64,000 nt of DNA from a beta proteobacterium MWH-UniP1 (GTDB lineage: Bacteria > Pseudomonadota > Gammaproteobacteria > Burkholderiales > Burkholderiaceae_A). The position numbers and the translations under genes are program-made. Below the pieces are notes generated by a model. It worked only from the letters and a program-made list of their open reading frames with translations, was not told where the DNA came from and did not search any database. The stretch lies in assembly GCA_036362785.1 (NCBI GenBank), contig CP143625.1:1613401-1677400 (forward strand), read 5' to 3'. Below, piece by piece: positions 11,489-14,373 of the stretch. Every line of letters starts with the position of its first letter. The first letter of the stretch is position 1.

Positions 11489-11579
11489 GTCGTGATTCTA
11501 TGCGGACGGGGCAACACCCAATGCTTGACCGAGCCAGAACAAGTTGCTGCAAAGGCAAAAATACGAGATAGTCATTGGC

Positions 11580-11975
11580 ATGCAACACCTCATTCGCCGC
11601 AGCACCTTCCGCCAGGCTAGTCCGGCCAAGGGCTTTACCCTGATCGAACTGATCATTGTGGTGTTGATTATTGGCATCTTGTCGGCAATCGCCGTGCCCA
11701 ACTTTGTCGACTTAAGCGGCAATGCCCGCAAGGCCGCCTTGAAAGCACTGGCCGCCAACCTTGGCACAGCTGCCAGTCTGAACTATGCCAATTGGGCCTT
11801 AAACCCATCCGTCACAAGGATCACAACCTGCACAGGCTTTAAAACTCAGGTCACACCAACACCGCCCGATAACATTGTGTTCACCGACCCCCCGGTAAAT
11901 AACATCTGCACCATCAGTGACTCAAACCTTTCCGGTGAGACCGCGACCTTCGCAATCCCAGGCCCGGCAATTTAA
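11580..11975 (+). CDS. Type IV pilin-like protein with prepilin leader
   Basis: From ATG 11580 the protein has 131 residues: a 17-residue basic leader, cleavage motif KG/FTLIELIIVVLIIGILSAIA with Glu at +5, a hydrophobic N-terminal helix, and a small globular domain with two cysteines near the C-terminus (TTCTGF and NNICTIS) that could form the usual pilin disulfide. A TTG at 11544 would add 12 residues but is less likely. No other pilus genes are nearby, so it is an orphan pilin or pseudopilin. A strong terminator lies 100 bases downstream. Confidence 0.85.
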   Translation: MQHLIRRSTFRQASPAKGFTLIELIIVVLIIGILSAIAVPNFVDLSGNARKAALKALAANLGTAASLNYANWALNPSVTRITTCTGFKTQVTPTPPDNIVFTDPPVNNICTISDSNLSGETATFAIPGPAI

Positions 11976-12077: not shown

Positions 12078-12104
12078 AAAAGCCCCGATAAACGGGGCTT
12101 TTTT
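12078..12104. terminator. Bidirectional rho-independent terminator between the pilin gene and the puc operon
   Basis: A perfect ten-base stem (AAAAGCCCCG / CGGGGCTTTT) with loop ATAAA is followed by TT on the plus strand. On the minus strand the same hairpin is followed by TTTTGCTTTTTT, so it can stop both convergent transcription units. Confidence 0.9.
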
Positions 12105-12173: not shown

Positions 12174-12195
12174 TGCAAACAAAACTTTGTTTGCA
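12174..12195. repeat. 22-base palindrome downstream of the puc operon's last gene
   Basis: Ten-base perfect arms (TGCAAACAAA / TTTGTTTGCA) are separated by AC. It lies 12 bases beyond the stop codon of the small membrane peptide. It could be the 3' end hairpin of the puc transcript or an operator; the sequence cannot decide. Confidence 0.65.
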
Positions 12196-12207: not shown

Positions 12208-12294
12208 TTATTTACCGCCGCGATTAAAGTGGTTGGCCACCAAAATAATTGCCACAACAAACCAAACGACCAAGATTACTTGCCAGGGTGCCAT
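12208..12294 (-). CDS. 28-residue single-span membrane peptide closing the puc operon
   Basis: A short open frame begins 31 bases after the pucC stop on the same strand. It has a Trp near the N-terminus (MAPWQ), one hydrophobic segment of about 17 residues (VILVVWFVVAIILVA) and a polar, positively charged end (NHFNRGGK), the layout of a small membrane subunit. An AAAGG stretch lies about 12 bases upstream of ATG 12294, somewhat far for a ribosome-binding site. I recognise no family. By position it may be an accessory antenna peptide, as the small gamma-type subunits known from some other purple bacteria are. That is inference. Confidence 0.6.
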   Translation of the reverse strand: MAPWQVILVVWFVVAIILVANHFNRGGK

Positions 12295-12325: not shown

Positions 12326-13738
12326 CTATGCCCGTGCCAAGATGTTTGAGCCATCTCGCCGCACGAGCGGCGCCATAACCACGATGGTAACAATCATCAG
12401 CACAAGTTCAATGAAATAGACCACCACGTAGCCACTTGCCGGGCCCGCAAAGCCCAATCCCAAGAGCTCAGGTGATCCCAGCATCACGACCAAGTCGCGA
12501 ATCATGCCCCCCAGCGCCATGGCCACGCCCGCTGCGGTTGCCTGCACGGCGCCCCAAGCCCCCAGCGCCAGGCCCACCTGATCCTTGGGGGCAAACTGCA
12601 TCGTGGCGGTTAAGGTGCCATGGCCAAACAAGCCGCCACCAAAACCGATTAAAAAAGTGCCAAAACCGAAGACCATGGGGGATTGCATGGGCGCAGCAAT
12701 AATCACCGCCAGAAAGGCCGGTATCCCTACAAGAGTGCCAATGCTGGCCATTCGAAATGGATCGGCGCCCTTGCTCAGTATCTTGGAGGCCAGGGCAAAT
12801 CCGAACAGGCTGCCTGTGGCCAATGTGGCGGTTAGAAAAGTGGTGGAGCTGACGCTGAGATTTAGGATTTCACCGCCGTAAGGCTCGAGCAGCACATCTT
12901 CCATCGTAAAAGCAGCCGTGCCCAGGCCCACGGCGACCAGCCGACGAATGGCCGCACCGCCCTTTGAAAAGCTTGCCCAGGACTCTTGAAATGTCGGGTC
13001 CGGGATTGGGGATCGTTTCCGATTCCGATCACGCGATTCTTGCTTCCACAGGGCAATCACGTTGAGCACCATGGTGGTCAATGCCGCCCCCTGGATGACC
13101 TGGACCAGACGGCCAGGACTGTAGTCTTCGAGCAGGACACCAAAAATAAAGGCACTGGCGATCATGCCCACCAACAGCATGACGTACATCAGACCCACCA
13201 CCTTGGGCTGTGATTCTGGTGGCGCCAGGTCAGTAGCCAAGGCCAGCCCAACGGTCTGCGTGGTGTGCATGCCAGCGCCCACCAGCAAGAAAGCAATCGC
13301 TGCGCCCAATTGGCCAATCCAGGCTGGCGCATCTGCCGCGTGACCCGCCCCCGCCAATACCAATAGCGCAAATGGCATGACGGCAAACCCACCAAACTGC
13401 AGCATGGTGCCCATCCAGATATAGGGAACACGGCGCCAGCCGAGCTCGCACCGATGCACATCTGACTTAAAACCAATCAGGGCGCGAAACGGCGCAAAGA
13501 CAAGCGGCAGGGCCACCATAGCTGCCACGATGGTCGCTGGTACCTTGAGCTCAACGATCATGACGCGGTTCAGTGTGCCAATCAACAAAACCATGGCCAT
13601 GCCAACCGAGACCTGAAAAAGCGAGAGTCGCAACAGCCGAGACAAGGGCAGGTCAGGGCTGGCGGCGTCAGCAAACGGCAAAAACCTGGCCCCATAGGCG
13701 GCCAAGGAGTTGATCAACGTTTTGCTAAAGCGATTCAC
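12326..13738 (-). CDS. pucC: LH2 assembly protein PucC (BCD/MFS family)
   Basis: The 470-residue membrane protein has about 12 segments and belongs to the bacteriochlorophyll delivery (PucC/LhaA) branch of the major facilitator superfamily. Family marks include LSLFQVSVGMAMVLLIGTLN, APFRALIGFKSD, LGWRRVPYIWMGTM, TVGLALATDLAP and LLEPYGGEILNLSV. It helps assemble light-harvesting complex 2. It lies downstream of pucBA, separated from pucA by a terminator-like hairpin, and upstream of the 28-residue peptide. It is a paralogue of the LhaA protein encoded at 55915-57378. Confidence 0.93.
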   Translation of the reverse strand: MNRFSKTLINSLAAYGARFLPFADAASPDLPLSRLLRLSLFQVSVGMAMVLLIGTLNRVMIVELKVPATIVAAMVALPLVFAPFRALIGFKSDVHRCELGWRRVPYIWMGTMLQFGGFAVMPFALLVLAGAGHAADAPAWIGQLGAAIAFLLVGAGMHTTQTVGLALATDLAPPESQPKVVGLMYVMLLVGMIASAFIFGVLLEDYSPGRLVQVIQGAALTTMVLNVIALWKQESRDRNRKRSPIPDPTFQESWASFSKGGAAIRRLVAVGLGTAAFTMEDVLLEPYGGEILNLSVSSTTFLTATLATGSLFGFALASKILSKGADPFRMASIGTLVGIPAFLAVIIAAPMQSPMVFGFGTFLIGFGGGLFGHGTLTATMQFAPKDQVGLALGAWGAVQATAAGVAMALGGMIRDLVVMLGSPELLGLGFAGPASGYVVVYFIELVLMIVTIVVMAPLVRRDGSNILARA

Positions 13739-13812
13739 GGTAGCTGCATTCTAAGAAATGCAATTGGAAACAACACGTCGAATAGCCACAGACGTATTAA
13801 TTCTGAATCTTG

Positions 13813-13852
13813 AAATAAAAAAGGGTCCCAAAGCCGAATGACTTCGGAACCC
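13813..13852 (-). terminator. Hairpin plus T-tract between pucA and pucC
   Basis: On the minus strand GGGTTCC...GGGACCC forms the outer stem and CCGAA/TTCGG an inner one, followed by TTTTTTATTTC. It sits 18 bases after the pucA stop. Such a partial terminator or stabilising hairpin would give more pucBA than pucC transcript, as known for antenna operons. Confidence 0.8.
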
Positions 13853-13869
13853 ACTTGAACAACACCTAA

Positions 13870-14067
13870 TTACTTCTTCGCGGGTGCTGCTGCAGCTGCT
13901 GCTGGCGCTGCGACTTTGCCAGCTGCGCCCTGGTGATAGTCCTTGATCCAGGTGGTGTTCATCACTAATGCAACGTGAACAGCAAATGAAGCAATGGCTA
14001 CGGCACTCAGGAAGAGAGGAATACCAACCGAAGGTTTTACTACGCACCACAATTTTCCGTAAATCAT
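13870..14067 (-). CDS. pucA: Light-harvesting 2 alpha polypeptide PucA
   Basis: The 65-residue antenna peptide has the alpha layout: N-terminal MIYGKLWCVVKPSVGIPLFL, one membrane helix, and the bacteriochlorophyll-binding His in FAVHVALVMNTTW. Counting from that His, positions +13 and +14 are Tyr and His; classical B850 peptides have Tyr-Trp or Tyr-Tyr there. The C-terminal tail is Ala/Pro/Lys-rich (GKVAAPAAAAAAPAKK), recalling the long tail of betaproteobacterial LH2 alpha. Ribosome-binding site AAAAGGAG precedes ATG 14067. It follows pucB by 12 bases. LH1 genes (pufBA) are not in the window. Confidence 0.93.
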   Translation of the reverse strand: MIYGKLWCVVKPSVGIPLFLSAVAIASFAVHVALVMNTTWIKDYHQGAAGKVAAPAAAAAAPAKK

Positions 14068-14079
14068 GATTGGCTCCTT

Positions 14080-14232
14080 TTACTTCAACCAGGGTGAGTA
14101 GATGTAGGCCAACAAATGCGCCAGGACAGCAATCATCCCGAAGATTTGTGTGCCTTGAATCAGATTGCGGTGAATCTCTTCTGATTCGGCTTCGGTAAGG
14201 CCTGTGGGCCATACTTTATTTGGGTCTGCCAT
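14080..14232 (-). CDS. pucB: Light-harvesting 2 beta polypeptide PucB
   Basis: The 50-residue peptide has the beta signature: a polar N-terminus with GLTEAESEEIHRNLIQGT, one hydrophobic helix, and the conserved His in VLAHLLAYIYSPWLK. The first His (EEIH) fits the residue near the B800 pigment in LH2 beta chains, and the second binds B850. With pucA it forms the alpha-beta pair of the peripheral antenna ring in the inner membrane. AAAGGAG lies six to eight bases before ATG 14232. The promoter with two PpsR-type sites is about 100 bases upstream. Confidence 0.93.
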   Translation of the reverse strand: MADPNKVWPTGLTEAESEEIHRNLIQGTQIFGMIAVLAHLLAYIYSPWLK

Positions 14233-14329: not shown

Positions 14330-14347
14330 TGTAATTCTACGCTTACA
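14330..14347. promoter_or_regulatory. PpsR/CrtJ-type operator 1 (TGT-N12-ACA)
   Basis: TGT at 14330-14332 and ACA at 14345-14347 with exactly 12 bases between, matching the TGT-N12-ACA consensus of the redox/light repressor PpsR (CrtJ). The site covers the -10 hexamer of the puc promoter. Confidence 0.75.
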
Positions 14348-14361
14348 CATTTATATGTCAA
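14334..14361 (-). promoter_or_regulatory. Sigma70-type promoter of the puc operon
   Basis: On the minus strand a perfect TTGACA (14361-14356) and TAGAAT (14339-14334) are separated by 16 bases. Transcription would start near 14327 and leave a leader of about 95 bases before pucB. Confidence 0.75.
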
Positions 14362-14373
14362 AAAAAAGTGACA
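14356..14373. promoter_or_regulatory. PpsR/CrtJ-type operator 2 (TGT-N12-ACA)
   Basis: TGTCA at 14356 and TGACA ending 14373 form TGT-N12-ACA with extended symmetric arms. It overlaps the -35 hexamer and lies eight bases from operator 1, the close spacing that allows cooperative binding of two PpsR tetramers in other species. Confidence 0.78.

Follow-up and report, generated by a model that had tools for sequence, protein, structure and literature searches.

A conserved gene for a 28-residue single-span microprotein, last in a betaproteobacterial puc operon, and its possible role in LH2

The window, the whole stretch of 64,000 nucleotides that was analysed, corresponds to positions 1613401–1677400 of the single-contig 2.05-Mb genome (G000) of the betaproteobacterium MWH-UniP1. 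It contains a puc operon on the minus strand, beginning with pucB (14080–14232), which encodes the LH2 beta polypeptide and is matched by PF00556 (E 9.5e-9) and by NF040862 (68.8 bits), a model that bears an LH1 beta name. Downstream lie pucA (13870–14067; PF00556, E 8.7e-9), encoding an LH2 alpha polypeptide of the MIYGKLW type, and pucC (12326–13738), encoding an LH2 assembly factor of the PUCC family (PF03209, 516 bits, E 7.6e-155) that scores well above a second, LhaA-like copy in the same genome. The fourth gene of this pucB-pucA-pucC-x operon is a microprotein ORF at 12208–12294, also on the minus strand, comprised of 28 codons and a stop and encoding the peptide MAPWQVILVVWFVVAIILVANHFNRGGK. 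Its ATG at 12294 follows the last base of pucC at 12326 after a gap of 31 bases, and the frame, strand and spacing given in the original prediction were all exact on re-check. The peptide also shows the predicted layout of one hydrophobic span, with W4/Q5 at the N-terminal edge, and a basic tail. Between pucA and pucC there is a terminator-like hairpin with a T-run (13812–13855, minus strand), a possible attenuator, and an intrinsic-terminator-like hairpin after the peptide gene (12078–12102, minus strand) is the probable end of the transcription unit. The 22-base palindrome described after the peptide gene is present at 12174–12195, with two perfect 10-base arms around a 2-base centre. It occurs once in the 2.05-Mb genome even when up to 3 mismatches are tolerated, and nothing comparable lies in the 100 nt that follow the peptide gene at the other five same-genus loci; the palindrome was therefore rejected as a conserved element. 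Upstream of pucB, two TGT-N12-ACA boxes (14330–14347 and 14356–14373) match a PpsR-like motif and are possible PpsR sites; the motif occurs 10 times in the 64 kb. Convergent with the puc operon, a plus-strand gene at 11544–11975 encodes a pilin-like protein that carries the N-terminal methylation motif PF07963.

Judged from sequence, the microprotein ORF is almost certainly a real conserved gene. A protein search found orthologues in five of six same-genus genomes at 70–79% identity; the sixth genome (G006, 79% complete) shows no true pucC. The six same-genus microprotein sequences are of equal length with zero indels, and their differences at codon positions 1, 2 and 3 number 83, 62 and 218. 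The substitutions are biased toward synonymous changes, as had been expected of a conserved gene, with pN/pS values of 0.213 for the six same-genus sequences and 0.366 for 15 Comamonadaceae-type sequences (0/300 column shuffles as low in either set), ratios that probably understate the constraint because pS is high (0.70–0.74). Across the genus the ORF is 71% identical without gaps, compared with 54% for the upstream spacer and 47% for the next 100 nt, and both flanks contain about 24% gaps. The frame in the window is open back to a TTG, from which the product would be 61 residues, but in relatives the homologue starts at an ATG or GTG that in most cases closely follows a Shine-Dalgarno sequence. 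The ORF is very short and has no family model, as might be expected of a chance ORF or a conserved non-coding element. Such an origin is nevertheless highly improbable, and a chance ORF was excluded by the low pN/pS, the frame tests with no indels in the genus, the Shine-Dalgarno sequences and the position-blind recovery of the family by profile in many genera. Where the original prediction had allowed for lack of conservation, a broken frame or a missing translation signal, the opposite was found in each case.

A search with PucC gave 80 named pucC loci, the best 80 of 584, and many betaproteobacterial pucC loci have a one-span ORF of about 28–42 residues directly 3' of the gene. A profile match after pucC was found in 26 of the 80 named loci, with carriers among these best 80 of 584 assigned to Limnohabitans, Rhodoferax, Polynucleobacter, Comamonadaceae and Oxalobacteraceae. 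The consensus of a 34-row alignment (A2) is MxxxxILLIxWxVVxxFxLANxFNRPxKxx. When the A2 profile was run without regard to position against 399 genomes of the order, matches were obtained in 27 at E<=0.01, and the peptide lies directly after pucC in 22 of the 28 true-pucC genomes, a true pucC being read from its score (at least 680 bits); the single-copy G140 (684 bits) was excluded as LhaA-like, and counting it makes 29. E values are below 1e-4 for 19 of these 22 matches and 0.002–0.008 for the other three (G075, G282 and G372), for which the call leans on position too. The remaining five of the 27 matches (E 0.005–0.01) come from genomes in which PucC itself has no match, and they appear fortuitous. 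Among 25,787 ORFs from 112 pucC loci, all matches at E<0.01 lie at the 3' end of pucC (52 loci, 49 distinct), and the next-best match has an E value of 7.8. As the sequences in A2 match their own profile by construction, subgroup profiles served as a control: those built from 5 same-genus, 13 Comamonadaceae-type and 7 g15-type sequences recovered the peptide after pucC at 17, 17 and 12 other loci, respectively, counts that omit L014, L045, L024 and L160 as copies and retain near-copies such as L119 beside L110 and G037 beside G318. None of the subgroup profiles matched away from the pucC 3' end at E<=0.05. A phylum-wide search of 299 genomes gave six matches, including G000 and G282, the latter adjoining pucC, and the remaining four were weak (E 0.004–0.008).

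A quickly built PucC tree covers 106 loci, 49 with the peptide and 57 without it, numbers that are not a frequency because 15 of 20 regions in one batch were picked for having it; 26 of 80 named loci and 22 of 28 genomes are the fairer figures. Presence and absence require six changes on this tree, compared with a mean of 35 for shuffled labels. The 112 loci had been reduced to 106 by dropping the duplicates L045, L160, L156 and L014, together with L044, whose contig ends 32 nt after pucC, and L113, which is partial and of odd origin; L046 is cut by a contig end. The peptide is found at none of the 43 loci named as alpha- or gammaproteobacterial, although in 36 of them pucBA precedes pucC in the same orientation. 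Two loci in the tree are named just "proteobacterium", one with the peptide (L095) and one without (L070). Thirteen peptide-less loci were counted as betaproteobacterial, a placement taken from names and the tree, with MAG names being those of the depositors: seven are convergent, one has no nearby pucBA and five are co-directional, the last comprising three Polynucleobacter-like loci, Azohydromonas and G272. In nine loci (L022, L060, L075, L083, L102, L103, L154, L155 and L157), two of them from Sphingomonadales, pucC converges on pucBA. The peptide-less Polynucleobacter-type loci L056, L047 and L051 carry a 78-residue two-span ORF 0–46 nt after the pucC stop, which in L056 has no significant Pfam match. 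A further membrane ORF of 59–66 residues with a GF(G/A)Y motif follows pucC or the peptide gene in L016, L023 and L025, which belong to the same-family genomes G009, G021 and G017, and it has no significant Pfam match in the two tested (G009 and G021). The spacing between pucC and the peptide gene varies, with a 4-base overlap at one extreme and a gap of 146 nt at the other, and in L163 (G017) the peptide ORF overlaps the called end of pucC by 71 nt. A plasmid collection gave 10 records, none of which reaches 60% identity or has a betaproteobacterial name.

Presence of the peptide follows the type of LH2 alpha. All 46 peptide-bearing operons with a readable alpha encode the MIY[GS][KR] type, the peptide occurs in none of the 45 operons with another alpha type, and 6 of the 52 MIY[GS][KR]-alpha operons are without it, indicating that it is dispensable somewhere. 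The rule is strong, but common descent could also yield the association, and a joint-change test on the PucC tree gave one independent pair on starred branches, which is too few for a sign test. Residues 44/45 of LH2 alpha are Phe-Leu in 41 of 46 peptide-bearing operons and in 19 of 50 others, with one locus unparsed. The window departs from the usual Phe-Leu, with Tyr44-His45 in its LH2 alpha as assigned by counting +13/+14 from His31. An exclusive link of the peptide to the blue-shifted type was rejected, given Phe-Leu in 19 of the 50 other operons and Tyr-His in the window.

The translation signals of the peptide gene were compared with those of its neighbours. The mean anti-Shine-Dalgarno energy is −7.28 kcal/mol for the peptide (48 loci, 44 at −5 or below), −8.62 for pucB (44 loci) and −8.06 for pucA (45 loci), whereas pucC averages −2.83 (41 loci, 8 at −5 or below) and only −2.97 when its best nearby start is used; shuffled sequence averages −2.33, with 17% reaching −5. 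In the window the values are −4.7 for the peptide, −8.0 for pucB, −7.2 for pucA and −0.1 for pucC, and in the five same-genus relatives they are −6.4 to −10.1 for the peptide and −1.5 to +1.4 for pucC. By these energies, initiation of the peptide usually resembles that of an antenna polypeptide more closely than that of PucC. The terminator-like hairpin between pucA and pucC is found in 21 of 46 peptide-bearing operons. Of 49 loci, 19 have a comparable hairpin in the 200 nt that follow the peptide gene and 2 have one between pucC and the peptide gene; these hairpin counts come from spans of different length and carry no shuffle control.

The C-terminal tail of the peptide has a mean charge of +2.9 and the N-terminus a mean charge of 0, with the C-terminus exceeding the N-terminus in 44 of 47 members. 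This bias predicts an N-out, C-in topology, with the N-terminus periplasmic and the C-terminus cytoplasmic, and the peptide is thereby predicted to run opposite to LH2 alpha and beta. AlphaFold models a Rhodoferax member as one helix spanning residues 3–23 with a mean pLDDT of 86.9. Beyond M1, conservation is highest at W11, L7, N21 and F23. Conservation on one face of the helix is not significant (10349 of 20000 shuffles as high), and no His is conserved for BChl ligation, with any His at all present in just 25 of 48 members.

The window peptide matches no Pfam or NCBIfam model and is "unannotated" in this sense of family models. The original proposal of an unannotated single-span membrane peptide encoded at the end of the puc operon was borne out, in that the gene is conserved and lies outside these models. 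Scanning the 34 A2 members gave matches to 12 Pfam and 13 NCBIfam families at E<=1, the best being DUF2784 for Pfam (E 0.0024, 5 of 34 members) and a single-member match for NCBIfam (E 0.0048); being weak and mutually inconsistent, they were judged generic hydrophobic matches and set aside. PF00556 is absent from the matches of all 34 members at E<=1, and membership in the antenna alpha/beta family was rejected for lack of a model match and of a conserved BChl-ligating His. A search of 177635 distinct PDB sequences with the A2 profile gave 13 matches at E<=10, the best (0.82) to a mechanosensitive channel, and no antenna chain is among the 13, in a set whose inclusion of gamma chains is unconfirmed. 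Among the matches listed from the open-licence PMC literature, no paper on such a peptide was found.

Several small antenna-associated polypeptides invite comparison. LH1 gamma is a single helix of up to about 36 residues. A previously unannotated LH1 gamma-like polypeptide of Rhodopila is described as having 22 residues, a periplasmic N-terminus and a position between beta helices (PMC9640540). At 28 residues the peptide falls within this size range of single helices (~22–36 residues), and it shares with the Blastochloris and Rhodopila polypeptides a tiny single helix and an antenna context; its predicted N-periplasmic orientation would match theirs. The known examples bind LH1 and are described as having genes that lie apart from those of the antenna (PMC10212510, PMC9640540), whereas the peptide gene is the last of an LH2 operon, and no sequence similarity was detected. 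The comparison with LH1 gamma made in the original prediction is apt for size and predicted orientation but gained no sequence support from the PDB profile search; the peptide resembles LH1 gamma in kind and would at most be a putative member. LH2-gamma of Rhodopseudomonas palustris would offer a precedent for an extra LH2 polypeptide, as is proposed here. It is described as a polypeptide of ~10 kDa that runs as an extended ribbon along the membrane plane and contains six serine-bearing, BChl-binding repeats, and in that account is reported only from Rhodopseudomonas (PMC9618040). The peptide, in contrast, has 28 residues, one hydrophobic span and no repeats, with a Rhodoferax member predicted to be helical, and LH2-gamma was rejected as a parallel. 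PufX is given as about 80 residues, with its gene directly after pufM (PMC9640540), and identity with it was likewise rejected for a peptide of 28 residues encoded after pucC.

PucD and PucE of Rhodobacter, an alphaproteobacterium, are likewise encoded beyond pucC in an LH2 operon, the pucBACDE cluster being named in PMC9231093. The peptide resembles these two in gene position; PucE is about 14 kDa. MetS, KdpF and CydX are also small proteins of one short span whose genes adjoin that of a large membrane protein, a likeness of layout only, as the partners are unrelated.

As the peptide was found only with pucC and one LH2 alpha type, it should act in LH2, and a function in LH2 biogenesis or structure is very probable on these sequence-based grounds. 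Interruption of pucC greatly lowers LH2 in several purple bacteria (PMC4949548). By analogy with the small antenna subunits we tentatively favour an LH2-bound accessory subunit over a partner of PucC, at just short of an even chance. Synthesised from an antenna-like ribosome-binding site, the peptide would insert as one helix with its N-terminus periplasmic and its C-terminus cytoplasmic and pack beside the LH2 alpha/beta helices, where it may stabilise or tune the MIY-type LH2 ring as LH1 gamma does in LH1; in some operons the pucA-pucC hairpin would lower the amount of transcript reaching it. Such a helix is in keeping with the size of the peptide, its predicted orientation and its antenna-like start of translation. 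Against it count the lack of an antenna chain among the PDB matches, the lack of a conserved His or helix face and, in the window, a Shine-Dalgarno sequence weaker than those of pucB and pucA. The location of the gene after pucC rather than pucBA and, in about half of the operons, behind a terminator-like hairpin argues against one copy per alpha/beta pair.

The same gene order would suit a subunit seated on the 12-helix PucC that helps in pigment hand-over or insertion of the LH2 polypeptides and is absent from the finished antenna. The peptide lies directly 3' of pucC in every carrier locus, with 4-base overlaps in some, and behind the pucA-pucC hairpin where this is present, so that its transcript level is likely reduced; one A2 member each approaches the transporter-subunit models PF16951 (E 0.063) and NF033494 (E 0.31), neither significantly. 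However, the ribosome-binding site of the peptide gene far exceeds that of pucC in strength, which implies an excess of the peptide over PucC, and in the betaproteobacterial part of the tree PucC of the G053/G301 and G092/G209 types occurs without the peptide, as do the co-directional MIY-alpha operons of Azohydromonas and G272. On balance a PucC partner, also argued by analogy, is the close rival, somewhat less probable than the LH2-bound subunit. Small membrane proteins can also act away from their operon partners, and the puc operon might be used only for light/oxygen control of a peptide working elsewhere, for example with LH1-RC, a translocase or lipid. LH1 gamma and proteins W, Y and Z are described as having genes apart from those of their partners (PMC10212510), which would lend this some precedent. 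It is nonetheless unlikely, as the peptide was found only with pucC and an MIY-type LH2 alpha in the loci examined and is absent from same-order genomes with other LH2 alpha types.

LH2 is generally presented as an antenna of two polypeptides, alpha and beta (PMC9618040). If an LH2-bound subunit or a PucC partner is the correct reading, the LH2 of many betaproteobacteria (Limnohabitans, Rhodoferax, a Polynucleobacter and kin) or its assembly has a component missing from current models, and as no Pfam or NCBIfam model exists, the peptide may be present yet unnamed in many genomes. That a helical third subunit of the single-span gamma type is standard in betaproteobacterial MIY-type LH2 is quite possible, though we hold this with slightly less assurance than the binding to LH2 itself. 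A 2025 review raises the question of a normal versus a concentric ring for the Limnohabitans antenna (PMC12654162), and the microprotein gene provides a concrete protein to look for in that antenna. Were the peptide a third subunit, it may contribute to the atypical 799/813-nm antenna of Limnohabitans. In the window, the Tyr44-His45 pair of LH2 alpha may itself affect absorption.
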